21,776 bases of DNA from a virus. Below the pieces are notes generated by a model that was given only the letters and a program-made list of their open reading frames with translations, ran no database searches and was not told the origin of the DNA. The stretch covers positions 1 to 21,776 of IMG/VR virus record IMGVR_UViG_3300025138_000434; one strand, written 5' to 3'. This document shows positions 1-13,202 of this stretch, one piece after another. Each line of letters begins with the position of its first letter. Positions within the stretch are counted from its first letter, which is position 1. The position numbers and the translations under genes are program-made.

Positions 1-47
1 TAGTTAGCTAATACAGGCTAACAAAACAACCTTTAAGGAGGTATATT

Positions 48-1992: not shown

Positions 1993-2021
1993 TTTGAACT
2001 TCCTTTACCAGCCTACTGAAT
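1993..2021 (+). promoter_or_regulatory. Bipartite regulatory motif, copy 1 (degenerate)
   Basis: TTTGAA at 1993 is followed, at the same 23-base offset as the better copies, by CTGAAT at 2016. The central CTTTACCA resembles the CTATACCA core of the strong copies. It ends 38 bases before the ATG at 2059 and is followed by an alternating TA tract and AAGGAG. This is the weakest of the eight copies on sequence, but position and spacing agree. Confidence 0.4.
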
Positions 2022-2058
2022 ATATATATTATATATACTATATATAAAGGAGTTAAAT

Positions 2059-2298
2059 ATGATTGAAAATAAAGAACACTGGGTAGTGAGTCACGGCTCT
2101 GCTTCCCTTGATCATCGAGAAGAAATTATCTGTTTTGACGAGAAAGAAGTTGAGGGGGCTTGTAATTTGGTAGACCAAAGATATAACCCAGATACTATCT
2201 ACGTGTTTAAAAGACCAGATGATGCTGCAAATCAAAATGCGTATTTTTGGAAAGGTGGATCTATCATGTGCGATAACAAATTTAGAAATAACAGATGA
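2059..2298 (+). CDS. Hypothetical protein, 79 aa
   Basis: A small, acidic to neutral soluble protein of unknown function. The first half is likely beta-stranded (HWVVSHGSASLDHREEIICFDEKEV) followed by a helix. No catalytic motif is visible. A good AAAGGAG site precedes the ATG after a long alternating TA stretch (about 2020-2046), and a degenerate copy of the regional regulatory motif sits 38 bases upstream, so this gene probably begins a transcription unit. The stop codon overlaps the start of the next gene (ATGA), indicating coupled translation with the genes leading to the small terminase. Confidence 0.7.
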   Translation: MIENKEHWVVSHGSASLDHREEIICFDEKEVEGACNLVDQRYNPDTIYVFKRPDDAANQNAYFWKGGSIMCDNKFRNNR

Positions 2299-2528
2299 TT
2301 ACACATCAAATACCCATACCTGATAGATCAGAAACTGCCAATCAGAAGTATCATTTCTATAAATTAAAAATAGGTGATCACATGGATGTTGAGTTTAAGA
2401 ATAATAAAGAAGCAGCAAAAGTACGTGTAGCTGCGAGTAATTATGGTATACGAAACAACAGGGTTATGGTCACTAGAACGTATAAAGAAGAAGTCCCCTT
2501 TATACTTAGAATATGGAGACAGTCTTGA
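2295..2528 (+). CDS. Small phage protein with basic core and RIWR C-terminus, 77 aa
   Basis: The protein has the layout of a recurrent class of small phage proteins: YHFYKLKIGDHMDV, then a helix with AAKVRVAASNYG, then RNNRVMVTRTYKE, ending PFILRIWRQS. I have seen this pattern (a KLKVGDSF-like start, RxxASxYG, and a final RVWR-like strand) in many phage genomes, but I know of no assigned function. It could be a small nucleic-acid-binding protein; that is inference from the basic central helix. The start overlaps the previous stop (ATGA). It lies directly upstream of the Cys-rich gene and the small terminase. Confidence 0.7.
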   Translation: MITHQIPIPDRSETANQKYHFYKLKIGDHMDVEFKNNKEAAKVRVAASNYGIRNNRVMVTRTYKEEVPFILRIWRQS

Positions 2529-2532
2529 TCTA

Positions 2533-3051
2533 ATGCTTTGTGCCTATGCTAAATGTGTAAAACAACGTCGAGAAAAAAGTATTTACTGTAGCGAACGTTG
2601 TACAAGAAGAAATAACTCAAAAAGAAATCAAAAACTGTACAAAAATGTTTTTAATGACACTGGTGGACCAGGAGCAATGAGTGGAGTCAGTTCTATTAAA
2701 CAGCACGAGATTTTGGGTGGTGCAAGTATGAGCTTTGGCACTCTTGATGACTACTCTATAGACCAAGATATATTTGATATAGCATTACAAGATCACGAGT
2801 ATCAAAAAATAGCTAGAAGTGACTACGAACATAGAATTGTGCTTGATGGTTTTGTTGAGTTTAATAAATCTTTTACTGAAAAACACGGCAAATCTTACAG
2901 TAGCTGGAATTACAACAAAATGAAAGAAGACGACCCAGAAAAATATAAAGAATTTCTGGAAAGACAGAAATATTATAACAGGAAACATGATGACAAAAGG
3001 AAAAACAAAATTAACCCCGAAACAGGAAAAATATGCTCAGAACGTAGCTAA
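2533..3051 (+). CDS. Zinc-ribbon-like Cys-rich protein, 172 aa
   Basis: I chose the ATG at 2533, just after the stop of the upstream gene. An in-frame ATG at 2443 lies deep inside the previous gene and would add 30 residues that look like out-of-frame sequence. The N-terminus carries C3-x4-C8-x10-C19-x3-C23 in a basic context, ending YCSERC then TRRN, a plausible zinc-binding knuckle of the kind seen in small phage DNA-binding or HNH-adjacent proteins. No HNH catalytic residues are visible. The rest is charged and mainly helical, with KSYSSWNYNKMKEDDPEKYKE near the C-terminus. It overlaps the small terminase gene by 65 bases, so a packaging or transcription role is possible but unproven. Confidence 0.7.
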   Translation: MLCAYAKCVKQRREKSIYCSERCTRRNNSKRNQKLYKNVFNDTGGPGAMSGVSSIKQHEILGGASMSFGTLDDYSIDQDIFDIALQDHEYQKIARSDYEHRIVLDGFVEFNKSFTEKHGKSYSSWNYNKMKEDDPEKYKEFLERQKYYNRKHDDKRKNKINPETGKICSERS

Positions 3052-3472
3052 AGGGATGAAGAAAAAAGATGCTGCAGTTGACGCAGGGTATAGTGAGAAA
3101 AATGCTACACGTGCGGGATACTTGTTAGACTCGGAAGCTAACCCTTTAGTAAAACAAAGAATATTATCCCTACAAGAGAGAGCAGCAAAGAAAGTCTCAC
3201 TTGACTTGTCAACCCATCTCACTGATTTACGAGACATAAGAGAAGGTGCTATCCGTAATGGTGCTTGGTCTGCTGCGGTTACTGCGGAAGTTGCTAGAGG
3301 TAAAGCAGCAGGACTTTACGTTACTCGTAGTGAGTTAACAGTTAACAGAGTTGACACTATGTCAAAAGATGAAGTTCTTGAACGTATGCAACAATTATAT
3401 TACGACACAGATGGTATTCTGCCAGCTGGTAAAATTATAGAAGGAGAAGTAGAAGATGAGCAAGGGGAGTAA
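2987..3472 (+). CDS. terS: Terminase small subunit (Terminase_2-like)
   Basis: This is the DNA-recognition subunit of the packaging motor. Residues about 6-60 give the classic N-terminal helix-turn-helix pattern of the Terminase_2 family: LTPKQEKYAQNVAKGM, then KKDAAVDAGYSEKNATRAGYLL, then NPLVKQRI. A helical oligomerisation region follows (HLTDLRDIREGAIRNGAWSAAV). The 161-residue length is typical. Two adjacent ATGs (2987 and 2990) are possible starts. The gene overlaps its upstream neighbour by 65 bases and its downstream neighbour by 17. Oddly, the large subunit is not next to it but starts at 13192, about 9.7 kb away. Confidence 0.88.
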   Translation: MMTKGKTKLTPKQEKYAQNVAKGMKKKDAAVDAGYSEKNATRAGYLLDSEANPLVKQRILSLQERAAKKVSLDLSTHLTDLRDIREGAIRNGAWSAAVTAEVARGKAAGLYVTRSELTVNRVDTMSKDEVLERMQQLYYDTDGILPAGKIIEGEVEDEQGE

Positions 3473-3623
3473 AAGACGTCCTGAGGATACTAAGAAAGTA
3501 GATAGTAACTGGGATAAAATATTTAAAAAAGAACCTAATATCAGTAGTTTAACTGATAGGTTTCTTGAGTGGTCACTAAAAAGAAAAGATAATAAACTTT
3601 CAGGGAAAGTAAGGAAAAAATAA
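3456..3623 (+). CDS. Small basic hypothetical protein, 55 aa
   Basis: A short gene that starts within the terminase small subunit end (AAGGAG about 14 bases upstream of ATG 3456) and ends in a TAATG overlap with the oxygenase gene. The peptide begins MSKGSKRRPEDTKKVDSNWD and ends LKRKDNKLSGKVRKK, so it is strongly basic and hydrophilic with a short helical segment (SSLTDRFLEWSLK). It fills the gap between its neighbours exactly, which is the main argument that it is real. No function can be assigned. Confidence 0.65.
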   Translation: MSKGSKRRPEDTKKVDSNWDKIFKKEPNISSLTDRFLEWSLKRKDNKLSGKVRKK

Positions 3624-4321
3624 TGGATAGATCTAAACCCTATAGAATTAAAAATACTATGTTAGCGATTCAATCTGATTGGATGATAGATAAAACTACA
3701 CTAGCGTTACTAAAAGACTCTGAAAAAGAACTCATTGAGTTTCACGAGAGTGATGGTACTCAAGAATTAAATATACCTTTACAAGAATATATAAAAGAAG
3801 AACTACCCGACGTTTACTCAGTGCCTCTGTTTACGGAACAGTTTTGTGATATTATGCTTGATGAAATAAAAAACATAGAAAATTATCTTGGATTTCAGGA
3901 AAACTCTGACGAAGACGAGCTACGTCAAATACCTGAAGTTACGCTACAGGATAATATACCTCAGTTATCTGAAAATCTACACAGCGTGGTATTAAACCAC
4001 ATGAACCCTTTGTTTACCGCAGTGTGGCAACGTTACAGTTTAAAAATAAATTCAATACAGTTAGCCAACTATAACTTAGCTAAAAGAGAGCAGGGAGAGT
4101 GGCATCACGACGCTAGTGCTGATATAAGCGTAGTTGTGCCTTTAAATACTGGCGACTATGAAGGCGGAGGAACTGAGTTTCATGGCAGAGGCGTTGTACC
4201 CCCCTTATCAAGAGGTCATGCTTTATTTTTCCCTAGTTTTACACACATGCACCGTGGATTAAAAGTTGGTAAAGGTGATAGATACTTATTGGTATTTTGG
4301 TTACTTGGTGCGTATGACTAA
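3623..4321 (+). CDS. 2-oxoglutarate/Fe(II)-dependent oxygenase (prolyl-4-hydroxylase-like)
   Basis: The C-terminal half carries the double-stranded beta-helix signature. The iron ligands are H161 and D163 in EWHHDAS and H210 in THMHRG, and R220 in GKGDRYLLVFW would bind 2-oxoglutarate. YEGGGTEFHG and SRGHALFFPS are the usual intervening strands. Family members couple 2-oxoglutarate decarboxylation to hydroxylation of a protein, nucleobase or small molecule; the substrate here is unknown. Phage members are common in marine genomes. The N-terminal 140 residues are helical and less typical. The start overlaps the upstream stop (TAATG), placing it in the same unit as the small terminase, and its end overlaps a regulatory motif at 4313. 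Confidence 0.88.
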   Translation: MDRSKPYRIKNTMLAIQSDWMIDKTTLALLKDSEKELIEFHESDGTQELNIPLQEYIKEELPDVYSVPLFTEQFCDIMLDEIKNIENYLGFQENSDEDELRQIPEVTLQDNIPQLSENLHSVVLNHMNPLFTAVWQRYSLKINSIQLANYNLAKREQGEWHHDASADISVVVPLNTGDYEGGGTEFHGRGVVPPLSRGHALFFPSFTHMHRGLKVGKGDRYLLVFWLLGAYD

Positions 4322-4341
4322 ACTTTACTATGATAAAGATG
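4313..4341 (+). promoter_or_regulatory. Bipartite regulatory motif, copy 2 (degenerate)
   Basis: TATGAC at 4313 is followed at the standard 23-base offset by AAGATG at 4336, with CTTTACTATG in between. It overlaps the last codons and stop of the oxygenase gene and ends 57 bases before ATG 4398. The regional AT-rich leader (ACTAAATAATATAAG) follows. Confidence 0.5.
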
Positions 4342-4397
4342 TAAGGTTTAATATAGTTAGTAACTAAATAATATAAGAAACCATTCCCCGATTCAAT

Positions 4398-4712
4398 ATG
4401 AGAAATAAAATTAAATTAAAACTAGTAAGTGACAACCCAAACCTGAAGACATACTACGTACCACTGACTACTATACACGTAGAGATGTACCCTGTCAAAG
4501 CTACGTCATTAAATGACGCAGTTGATCGAGCTAATCAAGGGTTAAGTGAAGGCATAGTAAGGAAAGTAACACTAGAAGAAAGCTTTACTAACGACGCTTA
4601 CAATTATCCTGACCCACCTACTACTGAGTTATTCGCTAGACAAATTGACCATTTTGAGCTTAATATAAAAGATTTTGACCATGCTATACCCAGTAACGGA
4701 TCAAAGTTATAG
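4398..4712 (+). CDS. Hypothetical protein, 104 aa
   Basis: A soluble protein of unknown function. The first half reads as beta strand, beta strand, helix (KIKLKLVS, TTIHVEMYPVKATS, LNDAVDRANQG). This resembles the small alpha/beta phage proteins in which a strand with VxAxS leads into an EAxxxAxxG helix. No active-site residues are evident. The start is preceded by a degenerate regulatory motif and an AT-rich leader, but the Shine-Dalgarno is poor (AAGAAACC too far upstream). The last 39 bases carry a good copy of the regional regulatory motif that serves the next gene. Confidence 0.65.
   Translation: MRNKIKLKLVSDNPNLKTYYVPLTTIHVEMYPVKATSLNDAVDRANQGLSEGIVRKVTLEESFTNDAYNYPDPPTTELFARQIDHFELNIKDFDHAIPSNGSKL
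4674..4702 (+). promoter_or_regulatory. Bipartite regulatory motif, copy 3
   Basis: TTTGAC at 4674, core CATGCTATACC, and CGGATC at 4697 match the strong copies at the same spacing. The motif is embedded in the last codons of the upstream gene and ends 46 bases before ATG 4748, as do copies upstream of other genes. It is followed by the leader TTAATAATATATAGGAG. Confidence 0.7.
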
Positions 4713-4747
4713 TTTACTTAGTAATTAATAATATATAGGAGATATAT

Positions 4748-4948
4748 ATGAATGAAGAAATACGTAAGTCGCTAGAAAAATCACTAGCTACTATTAATAA
4801 AGTAATGAGTGCTAGTATGAACAACTCTGAAGACATAGAAGGCAGTTTAGCTAACTACGGAGCTTTTATACAAATTAAAATGTGTGTAGAAGCACATATA
4901 GAAATGCATGATCTTATACGTAGTGATAAGGAGCGTACTAATGGATGA
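4748..4948 (+). CDS. Hypothetical helical protein, 66 aa
   Basis: A short all-helical acidic protein (two or three helices: EEIRKSLEKSLATINKVMSA, then IKMCVEAHIEMHDLIRS). It has no known domain. It starts at an ATG with a good ATAGGAG site 7 bases upstream, just below a strong copy of the regional motif, so it is probably the first gene of a two-gene unit. It overlaps the next gene by 8 bases, and its own 3' end supplies that gene's AAGGAG site. Confidence 0.7.
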   Translation: MNEEIRKSLEKSLATINKVMSASMNNSEDIEGSLANYGAFIQIKMCVEAHIEMHDLIRSDKERTNG

Positions 4949-5141
4949 TTCTTGTAAACACGATTGGCGCAATAGTATTAAGATAAATGCTGAAGGTACA
5001 TTAGATAATATTGTAGAGTGTGAAAACTGTGGGGTTAGGAACTATTTAGATAGTCGCGACAGACCAGAGCATTTAAGGCACCTACCTAATAAACGATATA
5101 ATCAATTAGTAAAAATATTTTCACCTAGAACTTCATTTTAA
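4941..5141 (+). CDS. Small zinc-ribbon-like protein, 66 aa
   Basis: I chose ATG 4941 because AAGGAG lies 8 bases upstream; an in-frame ATG at 4908 has no ribosome site and lies inside the previous gene. C5-x-H7 at the N-terminus and C27-x2-C30 (ECENCG) are spaced like a compact zinc ribbon. The C-terminus is basic with RDRPEHLRHLP and NKRYNQLVK, suggesting nucleic-acid contact, which is inference. It is the last gene before the non-coding stretch 5142-5539. Confidence 0.7.
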   Translation: MDDSCKHDWRNSIKINAEGTLDNIVECENCGVRNYLDSRDRPEHLRHLPNKRYNQLVKIFSPRTSF

Positions 5142-5156
5142 GTTTGGGGGATATAA

Positions 5157-5264
5157 GTGACCAAAAACAGCTGTTCAGTAAGTAACGGCGAAATCGACCT
5201 AGATGTGTGTGATACCAGAGCTTATAGCCCTTTCTTGAGTGTTTTTAACCTCAAGATTTCATAA
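5157..5264 (+). CDS. Possible 35-aa peptide (GTG start) overlapping the structured region
   Basis: A reading frame from GTG 5157 has GGGGGA about 6 bases upstream and runs to TAA at 5262, giving a 35-residue Ser/Asp/Cys-containing peptide starting MTKNSCSVSNGEIDLDV. It would overlap the first domain of the candidate structured RNA. The Shine-Dalgarno spacing is reasonable, but there is no other support, and the frame could be open by chance in a non-coding leader. Confidence 0.3.
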   Translation: MTKNSCSVSNGEIDLDVCDTRAYSPFLSVFNLKIS

Positions 5265-5437
5265 AAACGGTTAATCTAGGAAACTTACATGTGGCTAGTG
5301 CTCAGTATTTTATTGAGCCAATGCCACACCTTTTCTCTTCACGGAGGTTATTAAATCTGCTTGTTTGGTGGTGGATTAGGTGTCAGGGTGCTTCGTGAAG
5401 GGCTCCAAAAAAATAGACTCTGACACCACACCAAACA
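5198..5437 (+). ncRNA. Candidate structured RNA with three nested-stem domains
   Basis: This stretch between 5142 and 5539 holds three consecutive foldable domains. Domain 1: CCTAGAT 5198-5204 pairs with ATCTAGG 5274-5280 and encloses a hairpin TCTTGAG 5233-5239 with CTCAAGA 5250-5256. Domain 2: TGTGGC 5290-5295 pairs with GCCACA 5323-5328 around GCTCA 5300-5304 and TGAGC 5314-5318. Domain 3: TGTTTGGTG 5362-5370 pairs with CACCAAACA 5429-5437 around an 11-bp stem 5379-5389 with 5417-5427 containing one G-U pair. Three successive two-tier stems are unlikely in random AT-rich sequence. It does not match tRNA, and I see no tmRNA landmarks. It could be a free RNA or the leader of the gene at 5540; strand is inferred from neighbours. 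Confidence 0.5.
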
Positions 5438-5454
5438 CTCCTCAATAAAAACCT

Positions 5455-5483
5455 TTTGACTATGGTTTACTTTACTTTTGATC
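5455..5483 (+). promoter_or_regulatory. Bipartite regulatory motif, copy 4
   Basis: TTTGAC at 5455 and TTGATC at 5478 are exact, with a variant core TATGGTTTACTTTAC. It follows the structured region and ends 57 bases before ATG 5540. This implies the 5540 gene has its own transcription signal separate from the structured RNA. Confidence 0.65.
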
Positions 5484-5539
5484 CTTAGTATTATTACTAT
5501 GTAACTTTAACTACTAACCTTTAAAGGAGGGCAAATATT

Positions 5540-5803
5540 ATGACTAAAGCTACAGCAAAAAAACTAAACTCGGTGAAAAGCCAAGTAAAAGAGGCTCAAG
5601 CTTCACCCAAAGTGAAGTTCGGTAAATTTCACCCTGATGCTAAATTAAAAGCAACGGGTAAAAAAGTAACCAGCGACGACAATAACGCAAGAGTTAAGTC
5701 GGTTAATGGTAAAACAGTAAAAGAGGCATTAGCTGGTGGTTTATATACTGCTACTGACCTTAACTACGATATCAATAAAATTAAAACTTTAGAGATTGTG
5801 TAG
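5540..5803 (+). CDS. LNYDI-family small basic protein, paralog A (87 aa)
   Basis: This protein has a Lys/Ala-rich, probably disordered N-terminal half and a compact C-terminal module: NNARVKSVNGKTVKEALAGG, then TDLNYDI at 72-78 and a final hydrophobic strand. The same module (HNIxRAxAVNG, AL, LNYDI, then a G-x-L-x-L-like end) occurs in the minus-strand genes at 9276 and 9979, so the three are paralogs. The pattern of a short helix followed by a (D)L-x-(Y/W)-D-I strand and a terminal beta strand is also familiar from many small phage proteins, function unknown. A strong AAAGGAGG site precedes the ATG. The stop overlaps the GTG start of the next gene. Confidence 0.8.
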   Translation: MTKATAKKLNSVKSQVKEAQASPKVKFGKFHPDAKLKATGKKVTSDDNNARVKSVNGKTVKEALAGGLYTATDLNYDINKIKTLEIV

Positions 5804-6006
5804 TGTCTGTTATCAGATGTAAAAAGTGTAGGACTCTCGTAGAGCCTACACTCTTTGGTCCCAATGGTAATAAAGTGTACACCTTGTATACAACTCAATT
5901 ACCTAATTCTTATGCAGATATTGATGTCTGTGAAAGTTGTTATCACGAGTTAAAACTTCAAAAACATAACGTTGACGATGCTTTACCATCAGTCCCATCC
6001 CGTTAA
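5803..6006 (+). CDS. Zinc-ribbon miniprotein, 67 aa (GTG start)
   Basis: The start is GTG at 5803, overlapping the upstream TAG (TAGTG). The Shine-Dalgarno is weak, so translation is probably coupled. Two CxxC knuckles, C6-x2-C9 and C43-x2-C46 (CESCYHEL), are spaced as in zinc-ribbon proteins, with a beta-hairpin-like insert between them (LFGPNGNKVYTLYTTQL). It may bind nucleic acid or act as a protein adaptor; neither is shown. The 3' end encodes a copy of the regulatory motif (5971-5999) that would drive the next gene. Confidence 0.7.
   Translation: MSVIRCKKCRTLVEPTLFGPNGNKVYTLYTTQLPNSYADIDVCESCYHELKLQKHNVDDALPSVPSR
5971..5999 (+). promoter_or_regulatory. Bipartite regulatory motif, copy 5 (inside gene end)
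   Basis: GTTGAC at 5971, core GATGCTTTACCATCA, and CCCATC at the expected 23-base offset. It lies inside the final codons of the preceding gene and ends 47 bases before ATG 6046, the same distance as several strong copies. The shared leader TTAATAAATAATATAAGG follows. Confidence 0.6.
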
Positions 6007-6045
6007 TACTATATGTAGTTAATAAATAATATAAGGAGAATAATT

Positions 6046-6303
6046 ATGAGTAAACCAAAAGTGTGTGTCATCTGTAAAGATGGCATAGAACAGAAAAAAA
6101 CCCCAGAGGGTAAAGTGTACTGGGACTCAGGTGAAAATGCTGAGCCTTATGCAGAAGGTAGATGTTGTGGTAGTTGTAACGATATCTTTGTTATACCAGC
6201 ACGTATGGAAAATATGATGAAAGCAGCAGCAATGCGGGCAAGAAGGGAAAAAAGCAGACAACTACAAGGACGACTACCTGGATTACCTAATGACGAAAGA
6301 TAA
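6046..6303 (+). CDS. Conserved phage Cys-rich zinc-binding protein, 85 aa
   Basis: The layout VCVIC (C7, C10), then a SGENAEPYAEGRCCGSCN segment (C40, C41, C44), then VIPARM is a pattern I recognise from many phage genomes: CxxC, NAxP, GRCCxxCN, VxPxR. These are small zinc-binding proteins without an established role. The C-terminus is a basic helix (RARREKSRQLQGRL). A strong AAGGAG site and the shared AT-rich leader precede the ATG, below regulatory copy 5. It overlaps the next gene by 14 bases. Confidence 0.82.
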   Translation: MSKPKVCVICKDGIEQKKTPEGKVYWDSGENAEPYAEGRCCGSCNDIFVIPARMENMMKAAAMRARREKSRQLQGRLPGLPNDER

Positions 6304-6496
6304 CGAAAAACTATTTGAAGCCTTAGACAATATCGCATACGTAGCAAGAAAAAGTGGTGGAATGATACTACCTGAGCATCCGTTAGATGAAAAACCTTTT
6401 ATGATTTCTGAAATAAAGAAAAATTTAGATATACTTATCAAAAAATTAAAAGATGACCCTAGTAATGCTGAACGCTGTAGATATTACGAACTATGA
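6290..6496 (+). CDS. Hypothetical helical protein, 68 aa
   Basis: A small soluble, predominantly helical protein (NEKLFEALDNIAYVARK, then ISEIKKNLDILIKKLKDDP). No recognised family. It starts inside the end of the Cys-rich gene and ends in an ATGA overlap with the next gene, so it is the middle of a three-gene coupled unit. No strong Shine-Dalgarno is seen apart from upstream GGATTACC-type purines. Confidence 0.6.
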   Translation: MTKDNEKLFEALDNIAYVARKSGGMILPEHPLDEKPFMISEIKKNLDILIKKLKDDPSNAERCRYYEL

Positions 6497-6765
6497 ACTT
6501 AGAAGATAGTAAAAGTATACTAGCAACTAGACTGCAAGACCTCGACCATGGCGAAAGCCTACTGATTGATGAAGGTAAAACCGAAGACATGTTACTGATT
6601 TGGTATTTAGAAGATCGTTATCTTATACTTAAATTCTTGGACAAGACTTATGGTGTTGGACATATGCAGGGTAAATGGATACAGGTCAAAAGTCACATGA
6701 GCATACTCAATATGTTGAGTTCTGATATAATCATAAGCTGGGCTTGTGATCTTCCTTTACCTTAA
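6493..6765 (+). CDS. Hypothetical protein, 90 aa
   Basis: An alpha/beta-looking soluble protein: N-terminal helix (EDSKSILATRLQDL), then strands (ESLLIDEG, MLLIWYLEDRYLILKF), and a C-terminal amphipathic part (SILNMLSSDIIISWA). No motif ties it to a known family. The ATG overlaps the upstream stop (ATGA). The last part is fairly hydrophobic but not long enough to be a clear membrane span. It is the third gene of the unit starting at 6046. Confidence 0.6.
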   Translation: MNLEDSKSILATRLQDLDHGESLLIDEGKTEDMLLIWYLEDRYLILKFLDKTYGVGHMQGKWIQVKSHMSILNMLSSDIIISWACDLPLP

Positions 6766-6815
6766 TAAACATCTTATTTAAAATATAGGTTATATAAATA
6801 TAACAAGGACTTAGA

Positions 6816-6908
6816 GTGGATCGTACTGATCGTAGAATTATTAAAGTAGCTCTATGGACCATTTTACTCTTATTTCTCGACTCTATAACTAGTTTTTTAT
6901 CTTTTTGA
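6816..6908 (+). CDS. Putative 30-aa single-pass membrane peptide (GTG start)
   Basis: A GTG at 6816 has AAGGA 5-9 bases upstream and opens a 30-codon frame ending at TGA 6906-6908. The peptide has a charged N-terminus (MDRTDRR) followed by a hydrophobic segment of about 20 residues (IIKVALWTILLLFLDSI). This fits a small inner-membrane protein with an N-in topology. Its stop codon lies inside the next copy of the regulatory motif, just as other gene ends in this region overlap such motifs. No function can be given; small membrane proteins in phages may act in lysis timing or exclusion. Confidence 0.5.
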   Translation: MDRTDRRIIKVALWTILLLFLDSITSFLSF

Positions 6909-6932
6909 CTATGCTATACCATGTATTTGATG
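6904..6932 (+). promoter_or_regulatory. Bipartite regulatory motif, copy 6
   Basis: TTTGACTATGCTATACC from 6904 followed by TTGATG at 6927, a near-consensus copy. It overlaps the stop of the membrane peptide and ends 47 bases before ATG 6979. The shared leader TTAATAATATAAAGGAG follows. Confidence 0.75.
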
Positions 6933-6978
6933 CCCCCTATACTATTTATAGTAATTAATAATATAAAGGAGAATAATT

Positions 6979-7212
6979 ATGAATACTATTACTGGTCGTT
7001 ACTGGCCAACTACTAATAAAGAATTACTACAAGACTGGTCGATCAATCAGGCTACTAGATTCTTAATATATAAAGCTGACTCACCCGACGAGGAAGTATA
7101 CACCGACCTTACCGATAAACCAGGGCTGATTACTATTTATTGTATGCTAGCTAAAGAGTTATGGGGAGCAGGTTCAGTAGGCGTTGATGACTTAGTTGAG
7201 GGCTTGATATGA
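6979..7212 (+). CDS. Hypothetical protein, 77 aa
   Basis: A small acidic protein without a recognised domain. It has an N-terminal TGRYWPTTNKELLQDW helix start, a mid-protein strand (TRFLIYKAD), and a C-terminal helix (ITIYCMLAKELWGAG). It begins at an ATG with a strong AAAGGAG site and the shared leader, directly below a near-consensus regulatory copy, making it the first gene of a three-gene unit. The stop overlaps the next start (ATGA). Confidence 0.65.
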   Translation: MNTITGRYWPTTNKELLQDWSINQATRFLIYKADSPDEEVYTDLTDKPGLITIYCMLAKELWGAGSVGVDDLVEGLI

Positions 7213-7415
7213 GTAGAGAAAATTTAATTGAGATACGCACTACCGCCAAACTAGATGAGCAGATTGCTAGGTGGCGACTGGCTAAGTATTTAGCAGATGA
7301 AGTATTAAAGATATTAGACTTAGATGGTAACTGGTTACCCGAGGATGAAGAGTACCAATCATTTGAAGATGAGATGTTTAAGCTTTTATCTAAATGGGAG
7401 ACTAAAGATGAGTAA
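7209..7415 (+). CDS. Hypothetical acidic helical protein, 68 aa
   Basis: A strongly acidic, helical small protein (KLDEQIARWRLAKYLADEVLKILDL, then PEDEEYQSFEDEMFKLLSKWE). It starts in an ATGA overlap with the gene before it and overlaps the gene after it by 8 bases. Acidic helical miniproteins of this kind in phages are sometimes DNA mimics or inhibitors of host proteins, but nothing in the sequence demonstrates that here. Confidence 0.6.
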   Translation: MSRENLIEIRTTAKLDEQIARWRLAKYLADEVLKILDLDGNWLPEDEEYQSFEDEMFKLLSKWETKDE

Positions 7416-7701
7416 AGTAACAGGAAAAGACATACCACCCGTATATACAGAAATAGAAGAAGGCGTCTACGAAGACCAAAAAGGCAATCATTTTTACGAT
7501 GAGAAAGTACTCAGGTACAGAGTGTTTGAAAAACCTCTTGATGAACTTTGGGACTGGCGTTTAGTGAGTAGCCATGCTACTTATGATGATGCTGAAACTA
7601 ATGGTGGTGCTTGGTGCGGTCATAGTTGGAACGACGAAAACTATCAATACAAAATAGTTGATAATGGTAGCGAGTCATATATAAAAAGATTATTGTATTA
7701 A
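7408..7701 (+). CDS. Hypothetical protein, 97 aa
   Basis: I place the start at ATG 7408, 7 bases after GGGAG and overlapping the upstream stop. An in-frame ATG at 7324 would be entirely within the previous gene and lacks a ribosome site. The protein looks beta-rich and aromatic (VYEDQKGNHFYDE, LRYRVFEKPLDELWDWRLV, GGAWCGHSWND, YQYKIVDNG). No family is recognised. It is the last gene of the unit starting at 6979. Confidence 0.62.
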   Translation: MSKVTGKDIPPVYTEIEEGVYEDQKGNHFYDEKVLRYRVFEKPLDELWDWRLVSSHATYDDAETNGGAWCGHSWNDENYQYKIVDNGSESYIKRLLY

Positions 7702-7711
7702 AATAAGAACG

Positions 7712-7740
7712 TTTGACTATGCTATACCATCATTTTGATC
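7712..7740 (+). promoter_or_regulatory. Bipartite regulatory motif, copy 7 (consensus)
   Basis: TTTGACTATGCTATACC at 7712 and TTGATC at 7735. It ends 42 bases before ATG 7782. The sequence after TTGATC is nearly identical to that after copy 8. Confidence 0.78.
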
Positions 7741-7776
7741 AACGTTAAAATTACCTTAGTTAATAATATAAAGGAG
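7735..7776 (+). repeat. Duplicated leader, copy 1 (partner at 8172-8217)
   Basis: From TTGATCAACGTTAAAATTA through the AAAGGAG ribosome site the sequence is the same as at 8172-8217 except for a 4-base difference in the TTAATAAATAAT stretch. The two downstream genes also begin with similar codons (MNN). Such near-identity between non-homologous genes implies duplication or selection on the leader itself. Confidence 0.8.
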
Positions 7777-7781
7777 CAATT

Positions 7782-8144
7782 ATGAATAACGAGAATGTAA
7801 AAGCCGAAGATTTTGAAGAATGTCAACCTGACGATCGCCCCTTGGCTGATAATAGTGGGTACTTATTCAATATCAAATACCCTAAAGAACTTAACGAATT
7901 ACTGCTGGGTAGTAGTAATAAGCATCGTATAAGTATTACCTATTATGACTTCAATAAAGGTAGCGTTAAAGATCCTAAGTGGTTTACTTATTCTTATGTT
8001 AACGGTGGTTACCAGACTCATCACTGGTCGGTTACTAAAGGTAGGTTCGGTGAACTTCAACTTAAAGCCGTGGCTCATGAACTATTTGCGGAAGATTATA
8101 GGTACGTTCAAAGTACCTATGACCTAGAAGATGGTAGGGCGTAA
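7782..8144 (+). CDS. Hypothetical protein, 120 aa
   Basis: A soluble aromatic-rich protein of unknown function. Visible segments include an acidic N-terminus (KAEDFEECQPDDRPLAD), RISITYYDFNKGS, WFTYSYVNGGYQTHHWSVT and a C-terminal helix (LQLKAVAHELFAEDY). No catalytic pattern is obvious. It has a strong AAAGGAG site and its own consensus regulatory copy, and is followed within 5 bases by the next copy, so it looks monocistronic. Confidence 0.65.
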   Translation: MNNENVKAEDFEECQPDDRPLADNSGYLFNIKYPKELNELLLGSSNKHRISITYYDFNKGSVKDPKWFTYSYVNGGYQTHHWSVTKGRFGELQLKAVAHELFAEDYRYVQSTYDLEDGRA

Positions 8145-8148
8145 ACCT

Positions 8149-8177
8149 TTTGACTATCCTATACCATGTAATTGATC
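8149..8177 (+). promoter_or_regulatory. Bipartite regulatory motif, copy 8 (consensus)
   Basis: TTTGACTATCCTATACC at 8149 with TTGATC at 8172. It begins 4 bases after the previous stop codon and ends 47 bases before ATG 8224. Confidence 0.78.
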
Positions 8178-8217
8178 AACGTTAAAATTACCTTAGTTAA
8201 TAAATAATATAAAGGAG
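8172..8217 (+). repeat. Duplicated leader, copy 2 (partner at 7735-7776)
   Basis: Second copy of the leader described at 7735. It contains the palindromic TTGATCAA, AACGTT and the AT-rich leader ending in AAAGGAG. Confidence 0.8.
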
Positions 8218-8930: not shown

Positions 8931-9151
8931 TTGGTGGGTGGTAAATGGTACTAGTGAAGACACAGCATGTACAGGTATTTAACGAAGTAATAGACCTCTC
9001 CACTGATCCCTATATAGTAAGAACTAAGAAACCATGAGCTAAGACACAAGAACAAAAAACCTACAGCTTTATTATATTGACCAAGAACCATGGTCGAAGA
9101 CACAAACACCAAAGAAAACGCACCATCAGCCAATACGATCAATAGCCCACA

Positions 9152-9223
9152 GATCATGATCGTGATGCTAAAGACAAAGAACCATGGATCATGATCGTGA
9201 TGTTCTAGATCATGATCGTGATC
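9152..9223. repeat. Three GATC-rich 16-bp direct repeats
   Basis: GATCATGATCGTGATG occurs at 9152-9167 and 9187-9202, and GATCATGATCGTGATC at 9208-9223. Each unit contains GATC spaced every 6 bases. An inverted copy lies at 9746-9761. The stretch from 8931 to 9151 also contains scattered AAGACACA and CCATGG words but no supported gene. Such clusters can be iterons, partition or replication-origin sites, or repressor operators; the sequence alone does not decide. Confidence 0.8.
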
Positions 9224-9275: not shown

Positions 9276-9512
9276 TTACTTGAGCGCCAAGCTACCTTTA
9301 GAAATATCATAGTTAAGGTGAGTTTGAGCACCTTTAGGATATATAGTAGCATAATGAGCAAGGGCTTTTTCTGGGGTTAACCCATTAACAGCCTTAGCAC
9401 GCTTGATATTGTGTTCAGCCCTAGCTTTACCAGAGACATACACAAGAGTTTGAGGAGCCACGTTAGTAGCGACTACCGCAGAAGCGGATTTTTTAGTTTT
9501 AACATTAGTCAT
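9276..9512 (-). CDS. LNYDI-family small basic protein, paralog B (78 aa)
   Basis: Same architecture as the genes at 5540 and 9979: a Lys/Ala/Thr/Val-rich N-terminal half, then a module with AEHNIKRAKAVNG, EKALAHY, HLNYDI (65-70) and a short final strand (GSLALK). Identity with paralog C (HNIxRAxAV, AL, LNYDI) is clear by eye. AAGGT lies upstream of the ATG on the minus strand. It has its own sigma70-like promoter (9579-9607) and a strong terminator just downstream, so it looks like an independently transcribed, moron-like unit opposed to the surrounding plus-strand genes. Function unknown; a nucleic-acid-associated role is only suggested by charge. Confidence 0.85.
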   Translation of the reverse strand: MTNVKTKKSASAVVATNVAPQTLVYVSGKARAEHNIKRAKAVNGLTPEKALAHYATIYPKGAQTHLNYDISKGSLALK

Positions 9513-9578
9513 AATATTTACCTTAAAGGCTGATTAGTTATACTAAGTAGTAGCCTTAATTACCTACCCAGTACCCCT

Positions 9579-9607
9579 ATTATATAGCCCATGGTTAGTA
9601 AAGTAAA
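9579..9607 (-). promoter_or_regulatory. Sigma70-like promoter for paralog B
   Basis: On the minus strand TTTACT (9607-9602) is followed by 17 bases and a perfect TATAAT (9584-9579), about 67 bases upstream of the start codon at 9512. The upstream tandem TTTACTTTACT and a further AT-rich block (9625-9659) are shared with the region upstream of paralog C, which supports a conserved promoter. Confidence 0.7.
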
Positions 9608-9659
9608 GTATTATCTAATAAGAAGTATATATAATTTATATATAAAAACTATACATAAA

Positions 9660-9698
9660 GTTCCCTGCGGGGCACACAGATCGTCGCCTATCGGCGAC
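9660..9698. repeat. GC-rich 19-bp repeat with hairpin, copy 1
   Basis: GTTCCCTGCGGGGCACACA (with a following G) starts at 9660, followed by a perfect hairpin GTCGCC 9683-9688 and GGCGAC 9693-9698. Further copies are at 10402 and 10473. The block is sharply more GC-rich than the AT-rich sequence on its left, which is itself duplicated upstream of paralog C. Confidence 0.8.
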
Positions 9699-9736
9699 AC
9701 ACAAAGACAAAGACACAAAGACAACACATACTACAT

Positions 9737-9762
9737 CATGATCACGATCACGATCATGATCG
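9737..9762. repeat. GATC-rich repeat, inverted relative to 9152-9223
   Basis: GATCACGATCATGATC at 9746-9761 is the exact reverse complement of the repeat unit at 9208-9223, and the flanking TCATGATCACGATCA extends the GATC-spaced pattern to the left. The two clusters flank paralog B, its promoter and its terminator. Confidence 0.8.
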
Positions 9763-9978: not shown

Positions 9979-10221
9979 TTAACCTAGCGTTAGCCTACCC
10001 CCTTTAATATCGTAGTTTAAATCTACCTTACCGTAACCCAACGTTTTATACGTAACTAAAGCGTTAGTATATGACATACCCCCAACGGCTGAAGCCCTAT
10101 TGATATTATGAGCAGCACCCCCTTTAGTAACGTAAGTTAGTTTAGCGTTGACAGACACACTAGTATTAACGTTAGTAGTAACGCTAGTAGTAGCAACCTT
10201 TTTAGTATTAGTATTTGACAT
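9979..10221 (-). CDS. LNYDI-family small protein, paralog C (80 aa)
   Basis: Paralogous to the genes at 9276 and 5540. A Thr/Val/Asn-rich low-complexity N-terminal half (TTSVTTNVNTSVSVN) is followed by the shared module: AAHNINRASAVGG, NALVTYKT, DLNYDI (67-72) and the final GGRLTLG strand. It has a TAGGT-type ribosome site and a sigma70-like promoter at 10288-10315 resembling that of paralog B; the two probably arose by tandem duplication including their upstream regions. The N-terminal halves have diverged in composition while the C-terminal module is retained, so the module is likely the functional part. Confidence 0.85.
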   Translation of the reverse strand: MSNTNTKKVATTSVTTNVNTSVSVNAKLTYVTKGGAAHNINRASAVGGMSYTNALVTYKTLGYGKVDLNYDIKGGRLTLG

Positions 10222-10315: not shown

Positions 10316-10380
10316 GTAATTTAGTAACTTAATTTAACTAAAGTATATACAATTTATATATAAAAACTATACATAAATTG

Positions 10381-10504
10381 TGGGCTGACGCCCAGGAAAA
10401 TGTTCCCTGCGGGGCACACAGCACGCCTGACGGCGACACAGACCCACTAGAACTTGGACGAACCAGAAAAATGTTCCCTGCGGGGCACACATCGGCAGAG
10501 CCGA
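10381..10504. repeat. GC-rich 19-bp repeat with hairpins, copies 2 and 3
   Basis: This is the main content of the 450-base gap between paralog C and the gene at 10673. TGGGC-TGAC-GCCCA (10381-10394) is a perfect hairpin. GTTCCCTGCGGGGCACACA occurs at 10402 and 10473, each preceded by CCAG(G/A)AAAATG. Copy 2 is followed by CGCC-TGAC-GGCG (10424-10435), copy 3 by TCGGC-AGA-GCCGA (10492-10504). To the left, 10337-10378 repeats the AT-rich block seen at 9625-9659. No gene is supported here. Confidence 0.8.
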
Positions 10505-10672: not shown

Positions 10673-11020
10673 TTGAGAGAATACTTTGAACACATAAAAC
10701 CCGTATGCCCACATTCTATAGAGTCCTACGACCAAGATCGGTTACTCGTGTACGATTATAACCCTGCCCTATTATCCGTCTACTATGAAACGTTACACAA
10801 TTACGACGCAGTTTTGTTCAAGTGTCATCCTACGACCAATCGCGATGCCCTTATCGCCATAGTCCAAGATCTAAACGACGATAGACCTGACGCCCAGTGG
10901 TTTTGGTCACATCCCGACGACGAACATTACTCGACCCCTGTCCCTAGTATTATTATGCAGAACAAAGAAACTTTACAAAAAGCACGTAAAGAGTATAAAA
11001 TGAAGTTAAATGGAAAATAA
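10673..11020 (+). CDS. Hypothetical protein, 115 aa, non-ATG start
   Basis: An open frame whose first plausible start is TTG at 10673; no in-frame ATG occurs until near the C-terminus and no good Shine-Dalgarno is visible, so the true start may differ (the frame is open from 10646). The body is aromatic and soluble (LLVYDYNPALLSVYYETLHNY) with a His-rich segment (WFWSHPDDEHYSTP) and a basic C-terminal helix. No family is recognised. It precedes the 730-residue gene, overlapping its start by 11 bases, and is the first gene of the packaging module. Upstream are TTTGACTTAATAAGC (10622) and TAGAAT, which may belong to a promoter. Confidence 0.55.
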   Translation: MREYFEHIKPVCPHSIESYDQDRLLVYDYNPALLSVYYETLHNYDAVLFKCHPTTNRDALIAIVQDLNDDRPDAQWFWSHPDDEHYSTPVPSIIMQNKETLQKARKEYKMKLNGK

Positions 11021-13202
11021 ATTTCTACCTTTAGGTTACGCTGAAATGCTAGAACGCATGAAGTATAAAGATATGCTTGAACGCTTGAGTTCTACTACCG
11101 ACCCTGCTTATGGCGCGGAACAATTTGCTTACCCTTTAGAACGTGGACCTACAGAAAAATTCGGAGACCTTATAGGTAAGGGTTTATATAACTTCCCTTT
11201 CGCTTTTGACACTGAACGTTCTGCTATGCATACTGGTCAAGACTTAGCGAATGTAGCTTCTTACATCCCTGGACCAGGGAACGTGCTAGGTTACCTAGAA
11301 GGTGAAAAGATGGCTGAAGAAGGTAGACCTTTTTTAGGTAATCTTATATCTGCCGCATCAGTAGGTTTACCCGCAGCAGGTAAATTAGCTTCTCCTGTAA
11401 GAACTAAACTAAAAACATACCCTGCCCCATTACAACTACCACCACCTCCACCACCCCCTAGCCCTAAAATCTTAGAACACAAAGTACTGCACACCGCCGA
11501 CCGCCCTAGAGAAATAAAAGATGTCGAAGGTTGGAGAACTGGTAGCCAAAGTGAAGCTCCTTATCGCAGTTCTGCTAACTTAATGCCTTTAAGGTACGGC
11601 GACAATGACACACAGATGATGAGTCAAATAGCTTTAGCTGAATCAAACCTTTATAAAAAACCTAATAAAGTGTTCCCTATAGAAAACATACTCCAAGGCA
11701 TGAGACGTTATGGGGTAACAGGTAAAGGCAACGTAAACCAAAATGTAGACAGACAAATAAAAGATTTTTTATCTAAAGAGTTTGTAGCTAGAGGTAACGC
11801 TACTCCTGCTCAAGTTATGCTAGAATTACAAAAAAACGCACCTAAAATACAAGAAACTCATGCTTATTACGGGTTAAATTCAACCATGGATGATGCAGCA
11901 CAAAATTCACCTTACGCAAGGTACACTACTAAAAGACCTGTTTATGATTTAGACAGCCCTATTACAAGTATTAATGAATCAGCAGAAAAAATGAGCCAGG
12001 CTTACGGTGAACGTAAGTTTAATATGTTTGATGACGGTCAACTTTACGGTAAACCAGGATCGGAAAAAATAAGTTTTAAAAATCAACAACACAATGACTT
12101 AGCAATAGGTACTAAATTAGGAGGTAGTGAAAAAGGCTTAAAAGATAACAACTATATGCACCAAAGATACACCTTTGAAACTATAGATGGACAAGACAAT
12201 GTATTAGTAGGACAAGAGATTCAAAGTGACACATATAAACTCACAAGAGATCAAAGTAAATTAGCAGCTTCTGTAGGGCGAGAAGATGAATACGGCGGTA
12301 GAATGCATGTCGAACACATAGTCTCTAAAATTGGAGATGAACCTGAAATACCTTTTGAGGACATACAAAAAGGAAAATACACTGCGGGCGATGCACTAGA
12401 AATTAGTGAAGATACAGTAGATTTTCATAATTTTTTAAAAGAAACTGGTGAATTAGATAATTTTAATAAAGAGTTTGATGAAATTGCTAAAAAATTTGAA
12501 ACTGAACAACAAGATGCTATTGCTAATACTAATTTTGTAACTGTAAATATGAGAAATTTCGAAAACCCAGATATGCAGCCCTATGTTCCAGAAGCAGCAG
12601 AAGCATATAACCAAAGAGCAGAACGTTTAGTTTCAAACTACATGCCTGATTTTGCTAAGTATTTAGGAACAGCGACAGACTCTAAAAACCTACCGAGGAG
12701 CGCAGACTGGTTTACCGACAATGTAAAAATATTATTACAAACTGGTGCTAAAAGTGATTCTCCTTTCGTTTTAATACCCAACGGTGCTAGGTCATTAGCT
12801 CCGCCTTCTGGTAATTTAGAGGTAATACCACCTAAAATGATACCCTTTTTTGAAAAAAAGTATAAAAATAATAAGAGTATAAAATTTAACTATGACACTA
12901 AAGGTAAATTAATAAATATTCAAAAATTAAATGAGGATAATACAATGGATACTATATTATTCGCCGAACCAGACAAAGAAAGTATAAACCGAGCTAAGAG
13001 TTATAATGACTTCCTTAAAAAAGCTATGAAACAAACGGAACAAGATTACGGTGTTAAGTTAAATGCTACAGAATACATTGACGGTTACGATCAAGAGTTT
13101 TTAAAAATAGAACTAACCCCAGAACTAAAAGAAGCTTTTAAAACATTCAGAATGAACCATGGTGGAGTAGCTAGTTTAATGCCGTTAAAGTATGACCTCT
13201 AA
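11010..13202 (+). CDS. Polyvalent-type phage protein with EIQSD domain, 730 aa
   Basis: A large multidomain protein directly upstream of the large terminase. Residues 1-130 contain Gly/Ala-rich helical stretches, 144-150 is a run of seven prolines acting as a linker, and LMPLRYG follows at 191-197. Residues about 385-620 resemble the domain common in phage polyvalent proteins: VLVGQEIQSDTYK (EIQSD at 403-407), WFTDNVKILLQTGAKSDSPF (567-585), and a PPKMIPFFEKKYKN segment. That assignment is by pattern memory. Polyvalent proteins are often packaged and injected with the DNA. The C-terminus ends RMNHGGVASLMPLKYDL, repeating both LMPL(R/K)Y and the GG motif of downstream proteins. It overlaps TerL by 11 bases. 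Activity is unknown. Confidence 0.7.
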   Translation: MENKFLPLGYAEMLERMKYKDMLERLSSTTDPAYGAEQFAYPLERGPTEKFGDLIGKGLYNFPFAFDTERSAMHTGQDLANVASYIPGPGNVLGYLEGEKMAEEGRPFLGNLISAASVGLPAAGKLASPVRTKLKTYPAPLQLPPPPPPPSPKILEHKVLHTADRPREIKDVEGWRTGSQSEAPYRSSANLMPLRYGDNDTQMMSQIALAESNLYKKPNKVFPIENILQGMRRYGVTGKGNVNQNVDRQIKDFLSKEFVARGNATPAQVMLELQKNAPKIQETHAYYGLNSTMDDAAQNSPYARYTTKRPVYDLDSPITSINESAEKMSQAYGERKFNMFDDGQLYGKPGSEKISFKNQQHNDLAIGTKLGGSEKGLKDNNYMHQRYTFETIDGQDNVLVGQEIQSDTYKLTRDQSKLAASVGREDEYGGRMHVEHIVSKIGDEPEIPFEDIQKGKYTAGDALEISEDTVDFHNFLKETGELDNFNKEFDEIAKKFETEQQDAIANTNFVTVNMRNFENPDMQPYVPEAAEAYNQRAERLVSNYMPDFAKYLGTATDSKNLPRSADWFTDNVKILLQTGAKSDSPFVLIPNGARSLAPPSGNLEVIPPKMIPFFEKKYKNNKSIKFNYDTKGKLINIQKLNEDNTMDTILFAEPDKESINRAKSYNDFLKKAMKQTEQDYGVKLNATEYIDGYDQEFLKIELTPELKEAFKTFRMNHGGVASLMPLKYDL

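Follow-up and report, generated by a model that had tools for sequence, protein, structure and literature searches.

Phage lambda CII is a small helix-turn-helix (HTH) protein whose TTGC-N6-TTGC direct repeats flank a poor -35 element. In the middle promoters of phage T4, a phage box replaces the -35 element and the host -10 element is kept (PMC2988021; PMC6755090); this MotA box has the consensus (a/t)(a/t)(a/t)TGCTTtA and lies 12 +/- 1 bp from the -10 element (PMC2988021). The promoter array described here is like the T4 middle promoters, which work by MotA/AsiA sigma appropriation, in combining a phage-specific box at the -35 region with a host -10 element. No published account of the motif or of its candidate regulator was found in the literature accessible without subscription.

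The array lies in IMGVR_UViG_3300025138_000434, a 21.8-kb virus fragment from IMG/VR that was analyzed over its whole length (21,776 nucleotides; here termed the window). The gene products include a DUF932-like protein, the small and large terminase subunits, a portal protein, GroES, and the major capsid protein, the first of these being our own assignment for the plus-strand gene at 48-1076 (PHROG 1221). The nearest named phages are the pelagiphages HTVC023P and HTVC027P, phage 023Pt_psg01, and phage DSL-LC04, with identities of 56-62% for the terminase and 67-75% for the capsid protein; these values place the source phage in the same family as the HTVC023P-type pelagiphages and their relatives, which are tailed phages with genomes of about 57-62 kb. 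Most of the genome of the source phage lies outside the window. The source phage is uncultured and probably marine. An Rfam scan of the window gave no match.

Other features of the window include three proteins of 78-87 aa, encoded at 5540-5803 (plus strand), 9276-9512 (minus strand), and 9979-10221 (minus strand), which appear to be paralogues, in that their endings resemble DLNYDIxKGxLxL and their middle parts RAxxVNGxTxxxALxxY; the latter two are in a separate block. Five partly palindromic GATCATGATCGTGATC-type repeats are located at 9149-9223 and 9731-9761, in the interval that separates the array from the large terminase gene, and the relative G012 has similar GATCATGATCATGATC runs at the corresponding location. 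The sequence TTCCCTGCGGGGCACACA occurs three times (9660-9678, 10403-10420, and 10474-10491), and a 37-bp repeat at 97% identity (9623-9659 and 10341-10377) lies downstream of the start regions of the two minus-strand blocks. Just before the large terminase gene, a 730-aa gene at 11010-13202 had no PHROG match; at its place, the relative G005 has a far smaller, 168-aa ORF.

Promoter copies and their architecture

Nine copies of the motif were present in the window, all on the plus strand, where the number expected by chance is near zero (Table 1). All eight copies listed in an earlier note on this DNA were verified at their coordinates. The remaining one (copy 6) was recovered with a 42-column matrix, which was used together with shuffled controls for the motif scans of the window and its relatives and which replaced a 17-bp-only matrix that, when iterated freely, drifted to coding matches. 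Six of the eight listed copies matched TTTGACTATGCTATACC with at most three mismatches (shuffled mean, 0.08), those at 1993 and 4313 being weaker matches than the other six. A tenth, weaker copy was located at 5958-5999 of contig L113, just left of the window edge. Each copy in the window precedes a gene or ORF, and the overlap of some copies with the 3' end of the upstream gene, also pointed out earlier, was borne out for those at 4313, 4674, 5971, and 6745.

Table 1. Leader and promoter copies in the window
Feature	Position	Strand	-35 and -10 elements	Context
Leader of presumed DUF932-like gene (48-1076)	1-47	+		
Promoter copy 1	1993-2032	+	-35 TTTACC 2004-2009, -10 TATTAT 2027-2032	Precedes genes 2059-4321 (small terminase, 2OG oxygenase)
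Promoter copy 2	4313-4352	+	-35 TTTACT, -10 TTTAAT 4347-4352	Precedes ORF 4398; overlaps end of 2OG oxygenase ORF
Promoter copy 3	4674-4713	+	-35 TATACC, -10 TATAGT 4708-4713	Precedes ORF 4748; within end of ORF 4398-4712
Promoter copy 4	5455-5494	+	-35 TTTACT, -10 TATTAT 5489-5494	Precedes ORF 5540
Promoter copy 5	5971-6010	+	-35 TTTACC, -10 AATACT 6005-6010	Precedes ORF 6046; within end of ORF 5803-6006
Promoter copy 6	6745-6784	+	TGTGATCTTCCTTTACC, -10 TAAAAT 6779-6784	Precedes short GTG ORF at 6816; missed in the earlier note
Promoter copy 7	6904-6943	+	-35 TATACC, -10 TATACT 6938-6943	Precedes ORF 6979
Promoter copy 8	7712-7751	+	-35 TATACC, -10 TAAAAT 7746-7751	Precedes ORF 7782
Promoter copy 9	8149-8188	+	-35 TATACC, -10 TAAAAT 8183-8188	Precedes ORF 8224

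The overall element reads TTTGAcTATgC / TTTACc / N8 / GATC / N5 / TATAAT. In every copy, a -10 hexamer occupied motif positions 35-40, exactly 17 bp past the -35-like TATACC/TTTACC, which contradicts the earlier statement that the motif does not fit sigma70 spacing. The mean -10 score of the eight copies was 4.45 at position 35 and 0.12 at the next offset, and 0 of 3000 shuffles reached 4.45. Relatives were searched with the first 17 motif columns only, so that circularity in the -10 test was avoided; the -10 hexamer was at position 35 in 32 of the 43 nonredundant core-only matches, and at positions 34 and 36 in one each. The earlier proposal that a promoter element specific to the phage precedes gene units, with its spacing conserved in relatives, is supported. 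Since the -10 hexamer is fixed at position 35, TATACC/TTTACC (positions 12-17) stands in the place of the -35 element, with a spacer of 17 bp. The hexamers found there, TTTACT, TTTACC, and TATACC, agree with TTGACA at 3-4 of 6 positions, and TTGACA itself was never present; a canonical promoter scan of the window, which gave a modest excess of hits (51 versus 38 by chance), passed 3 of the 9 copies. There is strong support for the motif copies being a family of sigma70-type (host-type) promoters with an unusually rich upstream part.

Conservation extends beyond the two hexamers. Among 65 site clusters (80% identity), the strongest columns included G-43, A-42, C-36, T-35, T-33, A-32, C-31, G-21, A-20, C-18, and T-7. 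A second half-site, as described earlier, does exist, but it is less uniform than claimed (positions 26-29 in the eight copies were GATC in four, GATG in two, CATC in one, and GAAT in one), and a distance of 22 bp, not 23, separates the GA steps of the two halves. TTGA forms a direct repeat with this distance (-45 to -42 and -23 to -20), which equals two helical turns; the two TTGA sequences thus flank the -35 element and face roughly one side of the helix. To our knowledge, positions -43/-42, -36, and -21 to -18 are not among the sigma70 contacts. The conservation of such non-sigma bases, together with the recurrence of GA at 22 bp around the -35 element, suggests that an activator reads these promoters.

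Dozens of related phages share this promoter family. A degenerate pattern with the correct spacing was found in 46 IMG/VR stretches, many with two to six matches, whereas a control pattern with one additional base between the -35 element and GATC was found in 3 stretches with a single match each. Isolated matches at the replication operon start of relatives (for example, 14209 in G005 and 2799 in G003) apparently fall within coding regions and are unlikely to be promoters. On the minus strand of the window, a promoter-like site at 9577-9618 (TTTACT, 17 bp, TATAAT) precedes gene 9276-9512 and is without the GATC element; its equivalent was found in the relatives G001, G002, and G003.

The HTH gene and its association with the array

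Contig L113 shares 99.8% identity with the window over 7,216 bp and reaches further left. There it encodes a 104-aa HTH protein at 5636-5950, and the last base of this gene is 53 bp before the window start. The gene directly follows one that we take to encode DNA polymerase; the corresponding ORF of G005 matched all four named phages at 48-51%, and polymerase is annotated there. The HTH protein family aligns well. In a comparison of its profile with solved structures, the best match was sigma70 region 4 (E = 2e-4; region 4.2 HTH). Matches to Pfam sigma region 4 had E values of 0.004-0.07, below the cut-off. An AlphaFold model contained five helices (pLDDT 88.9), and its fold neighbors were generic HTH proteins, with DeoR at Z 6.2 and sigma region 4 at Z 4-4.5, the latter level with other HTH folds. 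One distant relative was found among the 84,980 species genomes of bacteria and archaea that were scanned, and the HTH protein is therefore essentially a phage protein.

The motif was linked to this gene in position and orientation. At the chosen threshold, 80 contigs fetched by the HTH protein had 216 sites downstream of the HTH gene and none upstream (369 and 343 kb, respectively), and 215 of the 216 were oriented as the HTH gene; with group-specific matrices, 9 of 76 matches were upstream in the most divergent third of the contigs. The HTH gene was also present in 27 of 44 IMG/VR contigs identified by the motif only, compared with 0 of 3 contigs identified by the +1-spacing control. Multi-match contigs without the gene start within the array itself or no more than 2.7 kb ahead of their first match; since about 4 kb separate the HTH gene from the first strong copy downstream of it in G003 and G005, such contigs begin too near the array to include it.

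Gene content among relatives followed the same pattern. G010, with a terminase 87% identical to that of the window, has the HTH gene and four sites, whereas the 62-kb contig G012, with a terminase 85% identical, has neither the HTH protein nor the array. The HTH-lacking G012 and the named phages had 0-2 sites, with one similar site kept in both G012 and G013, which is likewise without the gene; for the HTVC023P-type pelagiphages and their relatives, scans of four records over their first 50 kb gave no match to the motif or to the HTH protein. Four G005 genes were present in all of G003, G006, G010, and L222 and absent from G012 and G013; the HTH gene is one of them and is the only one of the four with a DNA-binding signature. 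Shared ancestry and synteny account for part of the association, and phylogeny is a partial confounder. No motif copy was found in front of the HTH gene itself. The HTH protein is the best candidate for an activator of the array, and it probably assists the reading of these promoters.

Proposed circuit and alternative explanations

We consider it likely that each site is a promoter of about 40 bp for host sigma70 polymerase and that the phage HTH protein binds the surrounding element, aids these weak promoters, and so turns middle or delayed genes on. An early or replication transcript would end with the HTH regulator gene, just after the replication genes. Host sigma70-type polymerase would read the -10 hexamer, the 17-bp spacer, and the degenerate -35 hexamer (TTTACY/TATACC), which is predicted to be surrounded by a recognition element specific to the phage (TTTGA.TATgC at -46 to -36 and GATC at -21 to -18). 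The HTH protein, about 100 aa in length with a recognition helix like that of sigma70 region 4, would bind on both sides of the -35 hexamer, probably on one face of the DNA, and would thereby help polymerase to use a series of promoters that would otherwise be weak. Each promoter would drive a unit of one to a few small genes, with the small terminase and 2OG oxygenase genes in the unit under the copy at 1993, and switching on the array would express a middle or delayed set comprising small accessory genes, the small terminase, and the 2OG oxygenase. A further possibility, put forward tentatively, is that a free-standing sigma70-region-4-like protein provides -35 recognition in trans, displacing or supplementing host sigma region 4 and reading TTTGA / TTTACC / GATC. 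If so, recognition of the -35 region in trans would be a second, independently evolved sigma appropriation, in a widespread uncultured phage group.

The intact -10 hexamer and 17-bp spacing would also suit strong early promoters for unmodified host sigma70 polymerase, in which the extra bases optimize polymerase contacts and no phage regulator takes part; extra consensus regions are likewise found in T4 early promoters (PMC2988021). Such an explanation is unlikely, given that the -35 hexamer is never TTGACA and that the array tracks a phage HTH gene. Moreover, we know of no sigma70 or alpha-CTD contact that fits the conserved GA at -43/-42 and the spacer GATC. Operators at which the HTH protein or another phage repressor covers the -35 region and shuts the array off would account for the adjacency of the HTH gene and for an element that overlaps the promoter from -46 to -18, where repressors also bind, but the repeat is direct, not inverted, the -35 hexamer is weak, and the lack of a motif copy in front of the HTH gene leaves no sign of autoregulation, which together make repression quite improbable.

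The element might instead be read by an activator from the host, for example CtrA or a response regulator of the PhoB type, as TTTACCAT is similar to a CtrA half-site, and other phages of alphaproteobacteria are under CtrA control (PMC9437464). TTAA-N7-TTAA, however, was present in 0 of 181 unique sites, and a phage HTH gene is common to the motif-bearing contigs; a host activator is thus very unlikely. The promoter of a single-subunit phage RNA polymerase, the idea raised in the earlier note, is hardly tenable: GACTATGCTATA is loosely like T7-type promoters, but the -10 hexamer is separate and conserved, and PF00940 was not found in 14 related records (four named genomes and 10 IMG/VR contigs of up to 62 kb), whereas T7, used as the control, gave a match at 1e-109.

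Activation by the HTH protein would give a predicted circuit for uncultured, probably marine relatives of pelagiphages, each genome having one regulator gene and some 7-11 promoters, and would offer a handle for forecasting the expression classes of such phages from sequence alone.

Comparison with known systems

The candidate regulator differs from sigma70 region 4 in being free-standing and in having an extra helical C-terminal part of about 50 residues. Sigma region 2, as would belong to a full sigma factor, was not found in the related phages, while ten cellular controls matched. The array may be a new case of a phage that re-aims host RNA polymerase without a polymerase of its own or a complete sigma factor.

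The likeness to lambda CII-type activation lies in an HTH protein of about 100 aa and direct repeats flanking a poor -35 element. The repeat here is TTGA at 22 bp, not TTGC-N6-TTGC, and the likeness is one of description.

With T4, the correspondence extends to the box itself, since the core TATGCTTTA matches the MotA box consensus. This box, however, is 19 bp from the -10 hexamer, not 12 +/- 1 bp, and the array has two further conserved parts, TTTGA on the upstream side and GATC within the spacer. MotA (PF09158) was not found in the 14 related records, most of whose contigs are fragments, while the T4 control matched; together with the box distance, this rules out membership among the T4 MotA-dependent promoters. 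In its manner of working, the array would nevertheless be most like the T4 middle promoters, and it is probably a new version of the T4-style redirection of host polymerase.
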